DNA of 36,595 bases from Candidatus Krumholzibacteriia bacterium (GTDB lineage: Bacteria > Krumholzibacteriota > Krumholzibacteriia > Krumholzibacteriales > Krumholzibacteriaceae), in NCBI GenBank assembly GCA_023131975.1, contig JAGLYV010000080.1:1-36595 (forward strand), in the 5' to 3' direction. Below, piece by piece: positions 19,486 to 28,908 of the stretch. The translations under genes were made by a program, and so were the position numbers. The notes under the pieces were generated by a model, which did no database searches, was not told where the DNA came from, and saw only the letters and a program-made list of their open reading frames with translations. Numbering within the stretch: the first letter of the stretch is position 1; every line of letters begins with the position of its first letter.

Positions 19486-20901
19486 CTACTTCAGTTCTAT
19501 CTCGTTGACTTCCCCAAACTCTGAAAGGGGACGGTCGAACTGATCCTTGTCACCGACGACGAGGATAGTCAGCTTGTCCATATCGAGATATTTGAGGGCC
19601 GCGGCCTTTATGTCTTCGACAGTCAACGCGGCGTACCTGGCCATATCTTCTTCAGGAGTATTCAACGGCCTTCCCTGGAACTGCAGGTTGATCAACCTCC
19701 GCACCATTCCGGCCTTTGAGTCATAGTCGAAGATCTGGCTGTTGAGAAACGAATCGACAGCTTTCCTGAGTTCCTCTTCCGTAGGCCCGTCTGTCTTCAT
19801 CCTCTCGATCTGGTCCAGGATCACCTGGAGAGCCCTGCTGTACTCGCCCGCTGAAGTCTGGGCGAAGGCACTGAAGACTCCGACCGCGAATGGATCGGAA
19901 CTGTACCTCGACCTTGCCGAGTAGGCGAGTCCTCTCTTCTCACGGACCTCTGTCGTTATCCAGGAGGTAAACGATCCCCCGCCAAGGATAAAGTTCATGA
20001 TCGTGACCGCGCACTTGTCGGGATTCTTCGAGTTGATTCCGAGATGCCCCAGGTTTATATAAGCCTGGCTGATATCCTTGTAGATATAGTTCACGGTCGG
20101 ATCGGGACTGCCGCCAGTCTCCGGAACCTTCGGGATATTCACTTCGCCCTGCTCCCATCCGGTGAACGCCTCACTTATCAGCTTTTCGATCTCAGGTTTG
20201 GTGACATCACCACTGATACCGATAATGGCATTGTTCGGAACGAACCAGGTGTCGTGAAAAGATACAATATCATCCCTGGTCACTGACGATACCGATGCCT
20301 CTCCCGTCTCCCAGCTGTACGGATGGTCCCCGTACAACAGTTTGTTGAACTCCCTGTTGACGATGTCCCCCGGCTGGTCGTTCTTCCTTCGTATGTCCTC
20401 GAGCATATCGTCTTTCTTCTTCTGTATCTTTTCCTCCGGGAAGGAGGGATTGGTAACAACGTCGGCGAGTATGCCCAGAACGTTTTCCAGATCTTTCTTC
20501 ATGCAGTTGACAAAAACGCTCGTACTGAGGTTTCCCCCGAAGAACTCGACCTGCGCGGGCAGGAATTCGAGCTCGTCGTTCAGCTTGTCTGCCGGCCAGC
20601 TCTCGCTGCCTCCGTTGCGCATGACCCAACGGGCCAGTTCGTTCAGTCCGAATTTTTCCTTTTCGGGAAAATAGGTCTTGAAAAGGATCACAATATTTAC
20701 CGTGGGAATCTCGTGGTCCTCGATCATGAAACCCTTCATCCCGTTAGGAAAGGAAATATCCATCACCTCGGGAACCTTGACTTCGAGGTCGGGATACTTG
20801 AGTTTGCTCGGGTGCTTTCTTCCTGCCGTCAACGGCGCCGCGAGCATAACGGCAAGGACTGTCACAAGGACAGGAATGAGGATCTTTCTTTTCATCGTCA
20901 T
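19486..20901 (-). CDS. M16 peptidase homologue lacking the zinc motif (non-catalytic partner)
   Basis: 471 residues with a signal peptide, so periplasmic or outer. It has the two-lobed M16 fold, including the C-lobe EKRGLAYSARSRY substrate-binding segment, but where active members read GLAHLLEH it has GLNELARW: the two His and the Glu are E88, W92 and R91. This is the arrangement of a non-catalytic alpha-type subunit, as in mitochondrial processing peptidase or bacterial M16 heterodimers. It starts 15 nt after the active M16 gene, so the two are an operon and probably form one peptidase. GGAAAGGAAAG lies before the ATG; the third codon is also ATG and could be the real start. Confidence 0.9.
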   Translation of the reverse strand: MTMKRKILIPVLVTVLAVMLAAPLTAGRKHPSKLKYPDLEVKVPEVMDISFPNGMKGFMIEDHEIPTVNIVILFKTYFPEKEKFGLNELARWVMRNGGSESWPADKLNDELEFLPAQVEFFGGNLSTSVFVNCMKKDLENVLGILADVVTNPSFPEEKIQKKKDDMLEDIRRKNDQPGDIVNREFNKLLYGDHPYSWETGEASVSSVTRDDIVSFHDTWFVPNNAIIGISGDVTKPEIEKLISEAFTGWEQGEVNIPKVPETGGSPDPTVNYIYKDISQAYINLGHLGINSKNPDKCAVTIMNFILGGGSFTSWITTEVREKRGLAYSARSRYSSDPFAVGVFSAFAQTSAGEYSRALQVILDQIERMKTDGPTEEELRKAVDSFLNSQIFDYDSKAGMVRRLINLQFQGRPLNTPEEDMARYAALTVEDIKAAALKYLDMDKLTILVVGDKDQFDRPLSEFGEVNEIELK

Positions 20902-20916: not shown

Positions 20917-22812
20917 TTATTCCTTGACCGCGCCAGACGCCTTTACGCGTTCCCAGAGCTCCATCATATATTCCTTCGCTTCGGCTTCCGACCTCATGCT
21001 CTGGAATTTCTGTATGATCTCCATCTGTTCGTCCTGCGGCAGGCCCATGAGCCATGCCTTGATGGCTTCCTGGTCGACTTCATCCCCCACTTCCTCCCCT
21101 TCTTCTCCCTCTTCCTTTTCGATCTTCACTCTCCAACCGACCGTCCGGTTGCTCTCAATAAGGTATTTTTCCGCTACCGTCATCAGGTCCTCGGCGGTGA
21201 CTTCCTTCACCATATCATACATCCGGAACATCGCGCGCCAGTCTCCAAGAAAGATCTCGCCCGTAAGCACGGTAAACGCGATACCGAGATTCGATCCGAG
21301 CTGCTGGACCTTCTGCGTTTCGAGCTGGTTTAAGATCCGCTGCAGCTCCCTGTCGGTCACCGGCTCGGTCTTGAGCCTTTCGATCTCTTCGTAGATCGCG
21401 GCCTCGACTTCCTCAAGCGTGTGAGGATGCCTGGGCTCGGCGGTGAACATCAGGAGGTTGTCGTATCTCTCGCCCGGCCCCGTGTATACTCTTACGGGAT
21501 CCGCCGTGAGTTTCTGTTCCTCGAATATCGACTTGTACAGCCTTGAGGTCCGGCCACCGGCCAGCACGCTGGTCATGACGTCGAATACTAACGATTCCGG
21601 GTCGGGATGGATCGGCTTGTGATAACCGATCATCAGTTTCGGATTGGCATCGTGTTCGATTATGAGTCGTCTTTCGCCCTTCTGCTCCGGTTCCCTCGTC
21701 TCCAGGGGAGGCGGCGGGTCCTGGGCCGGGACCGATTCAAAATATTTCTCAGCCATTTTCCTGACGGTCTTTACATCCACATCGCCGACTACAATGGCGG
21801 TCGCGTTGTTCGGAGCGTAGAACGTCTTGTGATATTCGGCGAGTTCCTTCCTGTCGATCGTCTGGATATCACTCATCCAGCCGAGGACGGGCCACTTGTA
21901 GGGACAGGCGGTGAACGCCACCGAGTTGAACGCCTCATCGAGCACATCGTCGGGATCGTTGTCGGCCAGCCGCCGCTCTTCCATGACGACGTCTCTTTCG
22001 ATCCAGAACTCCCTGAAAATGGCAGAATCCATACGGTCGGATTCCATCGTCATCCAGAGTTCGAGCCTGTTTGATGGCAGATAGACGAAGTAGACGGTAA
22101 AATCATAGGAAGTCCCCGCGTTGAGCATGCGGGATCCATTGTTCATATATGTCTCCCACAATTCGTTGTTCACAACGAACCGGGAGCGCTGCTCGTCCGT
22201 CAGCCTTACGATCTCTCCCCATGCCTGCTCGTATTCCAGGTACATCTCGAGATAATCGACACCGTCTCTCTCAAGGAGGTATTTTCTCGAGGTAAGCTCT
22301 TCGGGAAGGCTCTCCATCGCCCGGATCTTCTCTACCAGAACAATATTCTGTGTATATTTGTTGGTCCCGGCTTTCTCTGTCTCCTCATCGGAAAAACCTG
22401 TGATGATGGTCTCGCGAAACTCCTTGAACGCTTCGAACCGCCATTCCCCCATCTGCCTGCGAAGAACGATAGTCTTCTCGCCAAGCTCATCGGTTTTCTC
22501 TATATATGGGATCTCTTTCTTATAATTGGTCGTTCCCATCATCTTCGTGCCTTTGAACATCATGTGCTCGAGAAGATGGGATATCCCCGTCACGTTGGGC
22601 CATTCATTCGCCGACCCCACGTTGAATACTATAGCGCAGAACGCCACCGGGGCTTCATGCCTCTCGACGACCAGGAATTTCATCCCGTTGTCGAGTTTGA
22701 ACTCGTTGACCTTTTCCTCCAGCGTCTGGCACTGACCCCCTGGCTGAACCAGCAGAATGGTGAACAAGATCACCAGGGCCGACAGGAAAAGACTCCTTCC
22801 TTTTCTGAGCAT
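20917..22812 (-). CDS. M16 family zinc peptidase, active subunit with large insertion
   Basis: 631 residues with an N-terminal signal peptide. The inverted zinc motif is HLLEH at 79-83, in GISHLLEHMMFKGT. The third ligand is expected in VVMEERR (E278/E279), about 195 residues later instead of the usual 75: an insertion of about 120 residues, charged and helical, lies between (about 95-225). The C-lobe carries TSRLYKSIFEEQKLT instead of the standard RGLAY motif, which its partner does have. The last 65 residues are a charged tail (EEGEEGEEVGDE, then helices). With the downstream non-catalytic M16 gene it probably forms a periplasmic peptidase for small or unfolded peptides. AGGAGGAAGGATG-like sequence precedes the start. 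Confidence 0.92.
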   Translation of the reverse strand: MLRKGRSLFLSALVILFTILLVQPGGQCQTLEEKVNEFKLDNGMKFLVVERHEAPVAFCAIVFNVGSANEWPNVTGISHLLEHMMFKGTKMMGTTNYKKEIPYIEKTDELGEKTIVLRRQMGEWRFEAFKEFRETIITGFSDEETEKAGTNKYTQNIVLVEKIRAMESLPEELTSRKYLLERDGVDYLEMYLEYEQAWGEIVRLTDEQRSRFVVNNELWETYMNNGSRMLNAGTSYDFTVYFVYLPSNRLELWMTMESDRMDSAIFREFWIERDVVMEERRLADNDPDDVLDEAFNSVAFTACPYKWPVLGWMSDIQTIDRKELAEYHKTFYAPNNATAIVVGDVDVKTVRKMAEKYFESVPAQDPPPPLETREPEQKGERRLIIEHDANPKLMIGYHKPIHPDPESLVFDVMTSVLAGGRTSRLYKSIFEEQKLTADPVRVYTGPGERYDNLLMFTAEPRHPHTLEEVEAAIYEEIERLKTEPVTDRELQRILNQLETQKVQQLGSNLGIAFTVLTGEIFLGDWRAMFRMYDMVKEVTAEDLMTVAEKYLIESNRTVGWRVKIEKEEGEEGEEVGDEVDQEAIKAWLMGLPQDEQMEIIQKFQSMRSEAEAKEYMMELWERVKASGAVKE

Positions 22813-23055: not shown

Positions 23056-26022
23056 ATGAATGACGAGATGAGAAATAATATAAGATCAAGATATATCCAT
23101 CTGCTGGCTATAACGGCCTTTCTGGCCGCTGGAATACCGGCATCGCCGTCAGTGGCTTCTTCGGACCTTATCGACCCTTACTGGCAACAGAAGGCAGACA
23201 ACGCGATCAGGTGTGCCCTGGACCCCGAGACGCACATGCTGACCGGATCGAATGTCATAACATACACCAACAACTCCCCGGACACGCTGGACGCATTCTA
23301 CCTGCATCTCTATCCGAACGCCTTCCGGGAAAAGACCACTCCCCTTGTCGAGGATCACTTCCAGGATACATGGGCCATTCTTGTCGGCCTGACCGGTTCG
23401 GCACGCGGCTGGATGGATATCACCAGCCTTGCGGTCAACGGGGACAGTATCTCGTTCGATGTTGACGGGACGATCCTGAACGCGGCATTCCCCAGACCTC
23501 TTCTTCCAGGCAGAACAGTATCGATCGAAGTCGATTTCTCTGAGCTTGTGAGAAAAAAACTCGGCAGGTCCGGCTTCCTTGGGGACCACTACGATCTGGG
23601 CCAGTGGTACCCGAAGATGGTCGTGTACGATGACCTCGGCTGGCACCCCGATCAGTTCAGAAAAGGAGAGTTCTACGGTGAATTCGGCGATTTCGACGTC
23701 GAGATCACGATTCCCGCCGAATTCGTCATCGCTTCCACCGGCATCCTCGTCTCCGGTGACGCCGGATGGGAAAAGGCTATGGCCGCCGGGGAAAAAGCCG
23801 GAGAGACCGGCGAACATACCGGAAAAGCAGAGGACTCCATCACATACGGACCCGCGAAAACAGTGAAGTTCAGGGCTGAAAACGTTCACGATTTCGCCTG
23901 GTGCGCGGACCCCGAATTTGCCATGGAAAAGGCCGAATACAACGGATACGAGATCCGGGCTTTTTACCGGAAATGGAACAGCTCGTGGGCCGACTCTGCT
24001 CTCGCCAGGGGAATCCGCTGTATGAAATGGCTGGAAGACTTCGCTGGTCCATACGGATATCCACAGATCAGCATCGTCGATGTCCCCAGCGGCGGCGGGA
24101 TGGAATATCCGATGCTCGTGATGAACGGCTCGGCCGACGAAGACCTCATGCTTCATGAACTCGGCCACAACTGGTTCTACGGGATGCTGGCCAACGATGA
24201 ACGTGAAGAAGCCTGGATGGACGAGGGTATGACAAACTACCAGACATACCTTCACCGGGAGACAGAATCGGGCCCCTATGGGGGCGAGGACGAACAATTA
24301 TTCATGTCGTTCTTTAAACCACGCAAGATATGGGACAGCCTCTCCCGGGAAGTCATCTACTACCATCGCACCGGATTCGCCGAGCGCGTCGCCACGCCCT
24401 ATCATGAGTTCAGGAACTGCGGACGCACGATGGTCTACACGAAGGGTATGCTCTTCATGAGAGCTTTGCGTTATCACGTGGGAGACGCTGATTTTCGCAG
24501 AATAATGCATGCATACTTTGAAAAATGGAAATTCAAACACGTCGACGAGGACGCGTTCCTCGACGTATGTGAGGAGATATCCGGACAGGACCTCGGGGAG
24601 TTCTTTATACAATGGCTCCACTCCACGAAGAACTGCGATTACAAGGTAGACCGTTTCAAAGTATCAAAATCGACTGACGGATTCACCGCCGATGTCAGGG
24701 TGAAACGGAAGGGCGAGATGATGATGCCCCTTACCCTGGCTTTCCGGCTCAAAAACGGTAACACGGTCACGGAGAAGGTCGACGGCATGCCGCGCGAATC
24801 CGAAAACACCTTCACTTTCCCTGTAGAACCTGTCTCGGTGGCTATCAACCCGGATAACGAGATCCTCGATATCTATCTCCAGGACAATTTCTCTCCACGG
24901 AAACGCGAGCTGAAGCTGGAGTTGCTTCAGGGTGGTTACTATCCATCAGACGCCTACCAGTTTACGGTGATGCCGCTCGGATATTATAACGATATCGACG
25001 GGGGCAAAGCCGGATTGCGACTGAAGGGCAGCTATGACGGTATCTACAGGAATTTTACGCTCCAGGGGTTTTACGGATTCGAAAGTGGAGAGGTCGACGT
25101 CTACGGTTCTTTCGAAAACCCTCTGCCCTATTTCGGCAGAGAAGCCGACTGGAAAATTGACGGATACTACAGGGAGGGCAGGCAGGGAGCGAGCCTCTCG
25201 ATCTTCAAGACGAGACGCAAACATCTTTCCCAGCCTATTGCAAAACGATACACGCTCCGCCTCGGCTATCAGGAACTCACCGATCCCGCCTACGTATATC
25301 CCGGCATGTATGAAGAGGGAAAGAATATCAAAGCATCCCTCCTCATAGCCTCATACCCGAAGACCGATATATTCAACACTTCTTTCTTTCTCGGGCTCGA
25401 CCGGTCGTTCTATGGCAGTGACTTCAACTACGAAAAATTGACCTTCAGCGCCAGAATATGGCCTTCCAGACACTGGCCCCTGCCTTTCGAACCGAGGATG
25501 AGACTGTTCTTCGGTAGAGCTACTATGGACCCCCCGCTTCAGGAGATGTTCAACCTGGCAGGAGCAGGCCCGGTCGACAAGGAGGACTTCTTCTGGTTGA
25601 GGAGCAGAGGCGCTTTCCCGGAAGACTACTACAACAATTTCCATGTGGCTGGAGATGCTAACCTGCGCGGCTATTTCGATGGAGATTTCAGTTTCAGATC
25701 TATCGTATCGTCAAATATCGAGATAAAGCTTCCCTTCCTTCCTGTGGGCAAGAGACTCTCAAATATCCTGCGGCCCGAGCTGTACATCTTCTACGATTAC
25801 GGCAAGGCCCTCGGGGAAGATCCGCTTGAGGCACTTCCCACCGAAGCCAGGGATGCGCTCGGAGAAGATGCCTTCGACAGCGTCCTCCAGGATGCCGGAG
25901 CAGGTATAAGGATCTGGAAGCTCACGGCGGAATTCCCATTCTATCTGAGCCATCCGGAGATCAGCGGTGAGACGGAGCAATGGGACATGCGCTGGACGAT
26001 AGGATTCAGCAGCCTGTTCTAG
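23056..26022 (+). CDS. M1 (gluzincin) metallopeptidase with C-terminal Omp85-like beta barrel
   Basis: 988 residues: signal peptide (to about 35); M1 N-terminal domain; catalytic domain with GGGMEYP (E350, counterpart of GAMEN), HELGH at 367-371, E390 at the expected 18-residue spacing, and Y461 in VYTKG; an Ig-like domain (about 520-615); then about 370 residues of alternating strands with aromatic ends. That last part includes NLRGYFDGDF (L870-Y873), like the (V/L)RG(F/Y) loop motif of the Omp85/BamA superfamily, and ends in WTIGFSSLF with a C-terminal Phe as outer-membrane barrels do. This suggests an aminopeptidase tethered by its own barrel. GGAAGGG abuts the first ATG; ATG at 23068 is a possible alternative. 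Barrel assignment is by eye. Confidence 0.88.
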   Translation: MNDEMRNNIRSRYIHLLAITAFLAAGIPASPSVASSDLIDPYWQQKADNAIRCALDPETHMLTGSNVITYTNNSPDTLDAFYLHLYPNAFREKTTPLVEDHFQDTWAILVGLTGSARGWMDITSLAVNGDSISFDVDGTILNAAFPRPLLPGRTVSIEVDFSELVRKKLGRSGFLGDHYDLGQWYPKMVVYDDLGWHPDQFRKGEFYGEFGDFDVEITIPAEFVIASTGILVSGDAGWEKAMAAGEKAGETGEHTGKAEDSITYGPAKTVKFRAENVHDFAWCADPEFAMEKAEYNGYEIRAFYRKWNSSWADSALARGIRCMKWLEDFAGPYGYPQISIVDVPSGGGMEYPMLVMNGSADEDLMLHELGHNWFYGMLANDEREEAWMDEGMTNYQTYLHRETESGPYGGEDEQLFMSFFKPRKIWDSLSREVIYYHRTGFAERVATPYHEFRNCGRTMVYTKGMLFMRALRYHVGDADFRRIMHAYFEKWKFKHVDEDAFLDVCEEISGQDLGEFFIQWLHSTKNCDYKVDRFKVSKSTDGFTADVRVKRKGEMMMPLTLAFRLKNGNTVTEKVDGMPRESENTFTFPVEPVSVAINPDNEILDIYLQDNFSPRKRELKLELLQGGYYPSDAYQFTVMPLGYYNDIDGGKAGLRLKGSYDGIYRNFTLQGFYGFESGEVDVYGSFENPLPYFGREADWKIDGYYREGRQGASLSIFKTRRKHLSQPIAKRYTLRLGYQELTDPAYVYPGMYEEGKNIKASLLIASYPKTDIFNTSFFLGLDRSFYGSDFNYEKLTFSARIWPSRHWPLPFEPRMRLFFGRATMDPPLQEMFNLAGAGPVDKEDFFWLRSRGAFPEDYYNNFHVAGDANLRGYFDGDFSFRSIVSSNIEIKLPFLPVGKRLSNILRPELYIFYDYGKALGEDPLEALPTEARDALGEDAFDSVLQDAGAGIRIWKLTAEFPFYLSHPEISGETEQWDMRWTIGFSSLF

Positions 26023-26107: not shown

Positions 26108-27274
26108 TCAGTGCGCGACCATTCGTTTCAGGTCGGCAAGGGCTGACTGAAGGCGCTCCCTGCAGATCGGGTCTTTTTCATTCAGGACAACAGCCTCAAG
26201 GTCCTCTATGGCAGCGGTATATTCGGCTTCGGCAAGCACACCGGCGGCGAATGCCCTGACCTCGGGGGATAGATCCCTTATCATACCAGCCGCCCATCTG
26301 AACCCGTTGCGGTACCGTTTTGCCCTGAGTTCTTTTAACGCCCCGATCTTTATGGCGGGATCCTCATCGAAGAGTTTCCAGTAGAGTTCAGTCTCGAACT
26401 CGTCGCTGTGCATTATCTCGGCTTTCCCGAGTCCCGGCCTGGTGACCTCCGCGGAATAACCGACCAGGTCCACACGCGCGACATACCTGACCATGCGGGG
26501 CACCATCCATCTCATGCCTGTTGTGGACTCGGGATGGCCGGCGCACGCGAACACCCGCCCTCTCCCCGCTTCCTCGCAAAGCAGGAACGATTTGCCGGGC
26601 GTCATGCCCCGCGGGGCGTTTCCCGTATGATGGACATCGCTGCCGTTGACGGCAAGCTCGTCGTAAGCGACATTTTTCGCGCCGGACGGGGGAACAAATA
26701 CCGGCCCGTCATGATACTGGATGTACCCGTACCGGTAGTCCTTCATCTCGGGAAATATCTCCAGGCCTTTTTCGGTGAATGATACTTCGACCAGCGCGCT
26801 GCCACGCTTGTCGTGTATCCTGTCGATCGTGTCGGCACCGATCAGTCCGAGGCAGGGATAGCCCTTCGAGTCGGATACAAGGTAGGCGCCGGCGCAGATA
26901 CCGACGATACCTTTTCCCCTCTCCCGGACAAAACGGACGACTTCCTCGTGCAATCCGCTTCCCATGCTGTTGTTCTGCTTGCTGCCGCTCCCTCCGGGAA
27001 AGATTATCACGTCAAGTTCATCGAGCTTGCCCGTATAGATGTCGGCAGGCCCGATCAGAGAGGGTACGATCCCGGGATCGATCCTGAGAGCTTCGAACGT
27101 CTCGATCACACAGGCTGGACTGGCTCCGCCTCCATTGTACACCCCGGCCCTTATCAACGGCTCCAGTTCGTCTCCAGCGGACAGCCCCTGTCTTTCGCCC
27201 GCCTCTGAAAAAGGCGCCCAGGCAATAAGGACAAGGCCGAGAACCGCAATGCTCTTCATCAGGAATTGTTTCAT
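26108..27274 (-). CDS. secreted BPL-N/DJ-1-type glutamine-amidotransferase-like protein with C-terminal HEAT-like repeats
   Basis: 388 residues with a signal peptide (to about 25). Residues about 40-270 match the class I glutamine-amidotransferase-like fold of the biotin-protein-ligase N-terminal (BPL_N) family: RAGVYNGGGASPACV, then DVIIFPGGSGSKQN, the nucleophile elbow GICAGAYL with C127, and a later GHPESTTG that could give the His. The family's enzymatic role is unclear. Residues about 295-388 are helix pairs (IKIGALKELRAKRYRNGF, SPEVRAFAAGVLAEAEY) like HEAT/PBS repeats. It is convergent with the M1 gene. Function is open: a periplasmic peptidase or amidase acting on envelope material is one guess. 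Confidence 0.8.
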   Translation of the reverse strand: MKQFLMKSIAVLGLVLIAWAPFSEAGERQGLSAGDELEPLIRAGVYNGGGASPACVIETFEALRIDPGIVPSLIGPADIYTGKLDELDVIIFPGGSGSKQNNSMGSGLHEEVVRFVRERGKGIVGICAGAYLVSDSKGYPCLGLIGADTIDRIHDKRGSALVEVSFTEKGLEIFPEMKDYRYGYIQYHDGPVFVPPSGAKNVAYDELAVNGSDVHHTGNAPRGMTPGKSFLLCEEAGRGRVFACAGHPESTTGMRWMVPRMVRYVARVDLVGYSAEVTRPGLGKAEIMHSDEFETELYWKLFDEDPAIKIGALKELRAKRYRNGFRWAAGMIRDLSPEVRAFAAGVLAEAEYTAAIEDLEAVVLNEKDPICRERLQSALADLKRMVAH

Positions 27275-27340: not shown

Positions 27341-28843
27341 CTAGCGCAGCAGGACTATCTTCTCTGACCGGGTCGTTCCCGGCGCCTCGAGAAGATAGAA
27401 ATAGACCCCTGGATTCGCCGCGGTACCGTCAGCGTCCCGTCCGTCCCACTGGACCTCATAACTGCCCGTATCCCGGTCGAGTTCTTCCACGACTTTCACC
27501 ACTCTACCTCTCACATCGAATATAGTGATCTTCACTCTTCCCGGTGAATCTATCGTGTAGAGGATGTTGAACTTTTCTTCCATGGGCGTAGGGAATGGAT
27601 TGGGATAGGAGGAAGCTTTACTTGAAAATTCTGTGATCTCGAATACGTCATCACTGAGATCTATGGCCCGGATATTGCCGTCGAGCCAGGCCGTCAACTT
27701 CACCATGACATGTTCGCTGGCTATTTCAGGAACCAGCCAGCCGTAAACCTCCACTCCGGTCAAGCCGGATGCTATCGGATTATCGAAAGGACCCGCCGCG
27801 CCACTGATACTGTACGCGAGTGATATCGAGTCGGGTTCGAGGCCGGGATTGCTCCACCGGACCGCATACTCCATACCGCTGTAAATCGTCTGACCTCCAT
27901 TGGGGGAGATCAGGCTTGTGAAGGGCGCATACTGGATCTGCGAAGCGAGGAAACCTATCTGGCTCATACCATACCTGATATATATATACCCCCCGTCACC
28001 CCAACTCTCGCCCCAGCTGTTCTTCACGATCCAGGCTCCGCCTCCATCGCAGGCTGTATCGTCCCATCCGACTATCAGCACAGCATGATCCACGTAATTG
28101 ATATAGTCGTTATAATCGAAACAGCCTCCATCGTAGTTGTTAAAGAAAGAACTGGTCCTGACCGCCGAGTAGACAGGGCCGCTCAGAAGCGCCGTTTTGA
28201 TCGATGTGACATCGTAGGCCACCACTGAATAACCTGTCATGACGGCGACTGAAGTGCAGAAGGCCTGCCCGCAGCTTCCCCCGTCAACCCCGGTATAGGG
28301 AATGCAATTCTCCGTTATGGCCCCGAAAGAAACTAGGAGATTATAGGCGTCATGGGCGTTGCCACCACCACATCCTTGCCCATCTTTGTTACAATCCATG
28401 ATATGCTGTTCGGACAGGTCCATCATCATGCCATCATATATGGCAATGTGCCCCTCCAGCTGGCCGATCGCGGCGAAGGCCCAGCACGAACCGCAGGCGC
28501 CCTGGTCTCTCACTCCGGTCACTCCCGAAAGGGTCCTCCAGTCGAAGACCGGATCGTCGATACCTGCTCCAGGATAACTGAACCCGCCGGGGACGAATGG
28601 TGGCAGCGACGCCCACTCTTCCTTCGATGGCGGGATAAAACCGGTCCTTTGTGCCAGCTCTTCCTTCGAGAGTCCCGAAAGGGGAGTCCGCCCGACAGTG
28701 AAGCTGTACCCCTTTTCCGCGATGATCTGCCTGAGTGCTTCAAGCTCGCTTTCGATGTCCTCGACGTTTTCGCCGACAATGGGCACCGCCAGGATCGATA
28801 CGGCAAGACACAATACTACACAGGTGAATACAGAACGATGCAT
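27341..28843 (-). CDS. secreted papain-family (C1A) cysteine protease with C-terminal sorting/FlgD-like domain
   Basis: 500 residues from ATG 28843, which has GAGG 6 nt upstream. Signal peptide (to about 24), a propeptide-like stretch (about 25-95), then a complete C1A domain: Q114 and C120 in DQGACGSCWAF, H253 in VDHAVLIVGW, N275 in VKNSWGESWGDGGY. A beta-rich domain (about 300-410) follows, and the last 85 residues are the widespread FlgD-Ig/type-IX-like C-terminal domain (YPNPF near its start, VKITIFDVRGRVVKVV, GVYFYLLEA, ending EKIVLLR). It would be exported and probably surface-attached or released. The sigma-54-type regulator ends 65 nt upstream on the same strand, so the protease may be co-transcribed with it. 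No matching export machinery is in the window. Confidence 0.92.
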   Translation of the reverse strand: MHRSVFTCVVLCLAVSILAVPIVGENVEDIESELEALRQIIAEKGYSFTVGRTPLSGLSKEELAQRTGFIPPSKEEWASLPPFVPGGFSYPGAGIDDPVFDWRTLSGVTGVRDQGACGSCWAFAAIGQLEGHIAIYDGMMMDLSEQHIMDCNKDGQGCGGGNAHDAYNLLVSFGAITENCIPYTGVDGGSCGQAFCTSVAVMTGYSVVAYDVTSIKTALLSGPVYSAVRTSSFFNNYDGGCFDYNDYINYVDHAVLIVGWDDTACDGGGAWIVKNSWGESWGDGGYIYIRYGMSQIGFLASQIQYAPFTSLISPNGGQTIYSGMEYAVRWSNPGLEPDSISLAYSISGAAGPFDNPIASGLTGVEVYGWLVPEIASEHVMVKLTAWLDGNIRAIDLSDDVFEITEFSSKASSYPNPFPTPMEEKFNILYTIDSPGRVKITIFDVRGRVVKVVEELDRDTGSYEVQWDGRDADGTAANPGVYFYLLEAPGTTRSEKIVLLR

Positions 28844-28908
28844 ATAGACCTCACATAGCAGGGGAGGGATCAAAAAACCACTCGTCACAAATTGAATATA
28901 CCAGAAAT

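Follow-up and report, generated by a model that had tools for sequence, protein, structure and literature searches.

Gene Organization at the Locus

The window analyzed here is the whole 36,595-nucleotide stretch of contig JAGLYV010000080.1 from a Candidatus Krumholzibacteriia bacterium (GCA_023131975.1). Within it, a single forward-strand ORF joins an M1 metallopeptidase to a predicted Omp85-type outer-membrane barrel (Table 1). The antisense frames of this fusion gene, including the one that shares its register, are interrupted by stops. The start codon of the gene is ambiguous: A GGAAGGG stretch lies immediately 5′ of the start at 23056, and initiation at 23068 yields a more typical signal peptide (MRNNIRSRY...).

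Two M16 genes lie upstream of the fusion gene and divergent to it. The pair is retained in five related loci (L041, L042, L045, L047, and L070), and its first gene is kept beside the fusion gene in two others (L048 and L072); this neighborhood belongs mainly to Krumholzibacteriota and is not family-wide. Because both M16 proteins carry signal-peptide-like N-termini, as read from their sequences, their position beside the fusion gene suggests peptide breakdown in the periplasm. In the stretch between the M16 genes and the fusion gene, promoter-like sites were confined to the minus strand and did not exceed chance, and a promoter and terminator scan of the locus returned nothing bearing on the fusion.

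Two further minus-strand genes complete the immediate surroundings. Positions 26108–27274, convergent to the fusion gene, encode a BPL_N/GATase-like domain followed by HEAT repeats, a gene for which no homologue was found near related fusion genes. Positions 27341–28888 encode an exported papain-family (C1) peptidase with a FlgD_ig/type IX-like sorting tail, also close to the fusion gene.

Table 1. Features of the M1–Omp85 locus, in window coordinates
Feature	Residues	Position	Strand	Basis or remark
Second M16 protein, HxxEH site lost, probably inactive partner		19486..20901	−	Pfam; sequence
M16 peptidase, HLLEH site, divergent neighbor		20917..22812	−	Pfam; position kept in related Krumholzibacteriota loci
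M1–Omp85 fusion gene	1–988	23056..26022	+	988 aa; other possible start 23068
Sec-type signal peptide, predicted	∼1–34	23056..23157	+	Hydrophobic run; model helix 3–25
M1 N-terminal β-domain	∼40–305	23173..23970	+	Model secondary structure; ERAP1/IRAP fold match
M1 catalytic domain	∼306–525	23971..24630	+	PF01433, E 3e-19; PDB sequence matches
GGMEYP, GxMEN counterpart	347–352	24094..24111	+	E350 invariant, 58/58
HELGH zinc site	367–371	24154..24168	+	H367, E368, H371 invariant
E390, third zinc ligand	390	24223..24225	+	Invariant
Y461, probable M1 transition-state tyrosine	461	24436..24438	+	Invariant in 58 relatives
β-sandwich, M1 domain III-like, not POTRA	528–600	24637..24855	+	All-strand DSSP
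16-strand Omp85-type barrel domain, predicted	612–988	24889..26019	+	AlphaFold2 models, profiles, fold matches, motifs
Loop 6, between strands 11 and 12	826–881	25531..25698	+	DSSP of models; alignment
LRGY (Omp85 [VL]RG[FY])	870–873	25663..25674	+	R871 58/58, G872 52/58; aligned to BamA LRGF
FxDxG, strand 13	912–916	25789..25803	+	F912 58/58, D914 57/58; aligned to BamA FVDAA
Last strand, C-terminal aromatic/hydrophobic residue (barrel assembly signal)		25990..26019	+	Alignment tallies

The N-Terminal Part Is an M1 Peptidase

Judged by its sequence, the M1 zinc peptidase of the window protein is intact. A Pfam scan placed Peptidase_M1 (PF01433) above cut-off at residues 361–520, and PDB sequence matches of the fusion protein included LTA4H and other M1 enzymes. 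The HExxH...E zinc site lies within the M1 catalytic domain, with its residues invariant in all 58 relatives. Y461 is presumably the transition-state tyrosine, a role that we carry over from M1 peptidases in general. In the GxMEN motif, the alignment of the same relatives shows an invariant Glu and a family-wide replacement of Asn by Tyr or Phe; given that replacement, aminopeptidase activity is likely rather than certain.

Conservation extends across both parts of the protein: H367, E368, H371, E390, Y461, R871, F912, and G948 are invariant in the 58 relatives, down to ∼27% identity. These landmarks are more than chance, since they are invariant at such distances and since both parts share one ORF in nearly all loci analyzed (see below). 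A prior sequence-only reading of this DNA had placed HELGH, E390, LRGY, and a terminal Phe in a single ORF, and every position matches ours.

The region connecting peptidase and barrel is short and all strand in DSSP of the full-length model, which places the sandwich at residues 529–597. A Pfam scan detected no POTRA domain in the window protein, which thus differs in this respect from Omp85/TpsB proteins that carry one. Non-POTRA subfamilies are nonetheless accepted Omp85 members, and some of those published lack POTRA, as described in PMC4104836.

The C-Terminal Part Is a Predicted Omp85-Type Barrel

We built a full-length AlphaFold2 model on the alignment of 58 relatives (pLDDT 91.1, pTM 0.89). 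The model orders the M1 domains first, then the β-sandwich, and then 16 barrel strands spanning residues 633–983. All matches listed from a fold search with the full-length model were M1 enzymes, and the barrel was therefore modeled alone. The barrel-only model reproduced the same 16 strands (pLDDT 91.7, pTM 0.87), the strand number expected of Omp85/TpsB proteins, and its 50 listed PDB matches were all TamA, BamA, or Sam50 (best E 4.7e-10), at query-normalized TM-scores that are modest (about 0.45–0.56) and with large rmsd (8–13 Å). Hydrophobic alternation over the 16 strands was 0.39, compared with 0.17 (sd 0.03) in shuffled sequences; 0 of 2000 shuffles reached the observed value. Strand 16, the last, spans only three residues in DSSP of both models, so closure of the barrel is uncertain.

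In BamA, loop 6 is the long loop that joins strands 11 and 12. In our models, LRGY falls in the long loop at this same position, and the two Omp85/TpsB hallmarks, [VL]RG[FY] in loop 6 and FxDxG in strand 13, are both present. Structure prediction, the check that the sequence-only reading had proposed, accordingly yielded 16 barrel strands with loop 6 where an Omp85 protein would have it.

Sequence comparison supported the assignment at the level of the family. The window's own sequence, searched singly and directly, had no Pfam Omp85 match, whereas 5 of 56 relatives matched that profile (best 2e-9); the proposed HMM check thus failed for the single sequence and succeeded for some of its relatives, and the Omp85 assignment therefore rests on family and fold. 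A barrel profile searched against PDB matched BamA (3.7e-6) and TamA (1e-3), and its alignment with BamA sets LRGY opposite LRGF and FxDxG opposite FVDAA. In hhalign, the same profile scored E 5.6e-9 against six Omp85 barrels of the own genome, compared with 0.23 for the genome's TonB-receptor barrels and 0.51 for a reversed alignment. Given that both controls fail, we rejected a TonB-receptor-type barrel and likewise a soluble β-domain as candidates.

Profile search, profile–profile comparison, and fold search all point to Omp85 and to no other barrel type, in line with the barrel that the sequence-only reading had suspected. The terminal Phe on which that reading partly relied is present in the window protein, but it is not a strict family feature: Of 57 sequences tallied, 26 end in F, 14 each in L and I, 2 in N, and 1 in W. 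Family and predicted fold thus identify the C-terminal part as a barrel of the Omp85 type.

The Fusion Recurs across Phyla and Fits a Single Origin

A search of a species collection gave at least 583 confirmed loci, from which the best 80 were analyzed. In 78 of these best 80, M1 and barrel share one ORF, and the remaining two frames reach a contig end; the two-domain layout thus recurs in related genomes, where the sequence-only reading had proposed to look for it. Record titles among the same 80 name Krumholzibacteriota, Latescibacterota, Gemmatimonadota, KSB1, Neomarinimicrobiota/Fidelibacterota, Calditrichota, and Zixibacteria. The architecture is conserved in several phyla of uncultured bacteria.

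Closer to the host, most genomes of its family and order contain the fusion, either complete or as fragments cut by contig ends; the fusion was not seen in two genomes of 90–95% completeness (G002 and G008). Elsewhere in the class, families f7 and f8 carry it at 41–42% identity, and no full-length match was found in families f3 to f6.

Pairwise distances of the M1 part and the barrel were correlated (Mantel r 0.82, against at most 0.10 in permutations), and the two trees have 38 of 55 splits in common. Because distances and splits agree, these sequence data fit one old fusion that would have been passed on as a unit. A barrel-less member of the same M1 subfamily, recognized by its YWQQ segment, is encoded in another family of the class (L039:991–3594, minus strand) and may represent either the pre-fusion state or a loss.

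Other Envelope Peptidases and Omp85 Proteins

The own genome also holds an M1 paralogue in which a FlgD_ig/type IX-like sorting tail replaces the barrel (L127:734–2818, plus strand, contig C112). The genome seems to direct M1 peptidases to the envelope by two routes. Another M1-type protein, with ORFs of ∼1135–1154 aa, occurs in the same family and order (G009:C36, G010:C10, G015:C4, G020:C1, and G024:C149).

Two WD40-Omp85 members were found in the own genome as well, at L124:552–3356 (plus strand, contig C147; 934 aa) and L125:185–3454 (minus strand, contig C101; 1089 aa). Each consists of a Peptidase_MA_2-like N-terminus with an HExxH site (HEMVH and HELVH, respectively), a PD40 propeller, and an Omp85 barrel; no peptidase domain is described for the published WD40-Omp85 group in the main text of PMC4104836. 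The genome encodes several more Omp85 proteins, including POTRA-type BamA-like ones.

A Probable Periplasm-Facing, Membrane-Anchored Peptidase and the Alternatives

Taken as a whole, the fusion protein is probably best explained as a zinc aminopeptidase anchored in the outer membrane and facing the periplasm. It would be exported through Sec, and its C-terminal 377 residues would form a 16-strand Omp85-type barrel in the outer membrane, complete with loop 6 and the RG motif; the β-sandwich, without POTRA, would hold the M1 peptidase below the barrel in the periplasm. There, H367, H371, and E390 would bind zinc, E368 would act as general base, Y461 would stabilize the intermediate, and E350 would bind the free N-terminus of the substrate, with the enzyme presumably trimming peptide N-termini by the usual M1 chemistry. 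In Krumholzibacteriota, the divergent M16 pair would probably supply it with shorter peptides. The core of the sequence-only interpretation, a peptidase and an outer-membrane barrel in a single protein, is supported and largely right.

One alternative, which we consider unlikely, is that the barrel retains BAM/TAM-like insertase or translocase activity and that the M1 domain processes or quality-controls the proteins passing it. Insertion or movement of proteins is the role of most characterized Omp85 proteins, the Omp85 signatures (loop-6 RG, FxDxG, last strand) are all kept in the family, and the short strand 16 of the models would be consistent with a weak seam as in BamA. The fusion protein, however, has no POTRA domain, its genome has several other Omp85 proteins that include POTRA-type BamA-like ones, and the fusion is missing from some near-complete genomes of the class. 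We give little credence to a barrel that opens at the seam between strands 1 and 16 and inserts or exports proteins whose N-termini the attached M1 domain trims in passage; if true, this would be a peptidase-coupled Omp85 machine, with assembly and processing performed by one protein in several phyla.

Surface display is likewise a doubtful reading, in which the barrel would expose the M1 domain on the cell surface, in the manner of an autotransporter, to digest external protein; this was the initial proposal for PlpD. The sequence-only reading had left this orientation open alongside the periplasmic one, and the original PlpD model is quoted in PMC4104836; the own-genome M1 paralogue with a type IX-like sorting tail also makes external M1 peptidases plausible in this organism. 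Against display, a barrel whose conserved loop 6 and RG motif argue for a plugged state would need to let through a folded zinc enzyme of 600 residues, known Omp85 barrels have a periplasmic N-terminus, and the patatin domain of PlpD was later located only in the periplasm (PMC11116518). Because of this known topology and the periplasmic location of the PlpD enzyme domain, the M1 domain more likely faces the periplasm than the outside, by analogy. That the C-terminal part is another barrel type or a soluble β-domain is very improbable: The window sequence lacks a direct Pfam match and TM-scores are modest, but independent profile, fold, and motif evidence points to Omp85, and the TonB-receptor and reversed controls fail.

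Comparison with Known Systems

The proposed periplasmic, barrel-anchored peptidase combines features of several described proteins. With the M1 aminopeptidases ERAP1, IRAP, LTA4H, and APN it shares the zinc site, the GxME motif, and the folds of the N-terminal and catalytic domains. APN/ERAP-type enzymes continue into a helical C-terminal domain, whereas the fusion protein has the barrel at that place. NCBIfam and Pfam scans of the window protein gave only weak matches besides M1; since these libraries see the M1 part alone, automatic annotation likely misses the membrane location.

The domain PF00149, which we take to be a calcineurin-like phosphoesterase, has an enzyme fold different from that of M1. 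It is the N-terminal domain, there called a metalloprotease, of the "Metallo" Omp85 subfamily (Heinz and Lithgow 2014, PMC4104836), which resembles the fusion protein in joining a metal-dependent enzyme to an Omp85 barrel and differs in the enzyme, M1 in our case; the main text of that paper makes no mention of PF01433. The WD40-Omp85 subfamily of the same source likewise carries an N-terminal region other than POTRA ahead of its Omp85 barrel. It differs in the β-propeller that lies between the peptidase-like part and the barrel, and the peptidase of its own-genome members is not M1.

None of the ten bacterial Omp85 subfamilies of Heinz and Lithgow is described with an M1 domain in the main text of PMC4104836, and we found no description of an M1–Omp85 protein in the open-access literature, an absence that is not proof; the sequence-only reading, too, had known of no M1 version of such an enzyme–Omp85 fusion. 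On these grounds, we regard the fusion as an Omp85 protein whose N-terminal enzyme is new. Omp85 proteins are classed by what the barrel carries, as set out in PMC4104836, and a family found in at least seven phylum-level groups constitutes a further Omp85 architecture.

The closest parallel in layout is PlpD, the patatin-Omp85 (type Vd) protein, which also has an N-terminal enzyme and a C-terminal Omp85 barrel in a single chain. PlpD is a patatin lipase, whereas the fusion protein is an M1 zinc peptidase without a patatin domain. PlpD, BamA, and TamA each contain POTRA, whereas none separates enzyme from barrel here, and the fusion therefore offers a direct route to asking what the barrel itself does. 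The PlpD patatin domain is found in the periplasm only (PMC11116518); together with PlpD, the M1–Omp85 family supports the view that anchoring periplasmic enzymes is another role of the Omp85 barrel, beyond its part as an assembly or translocation machine.
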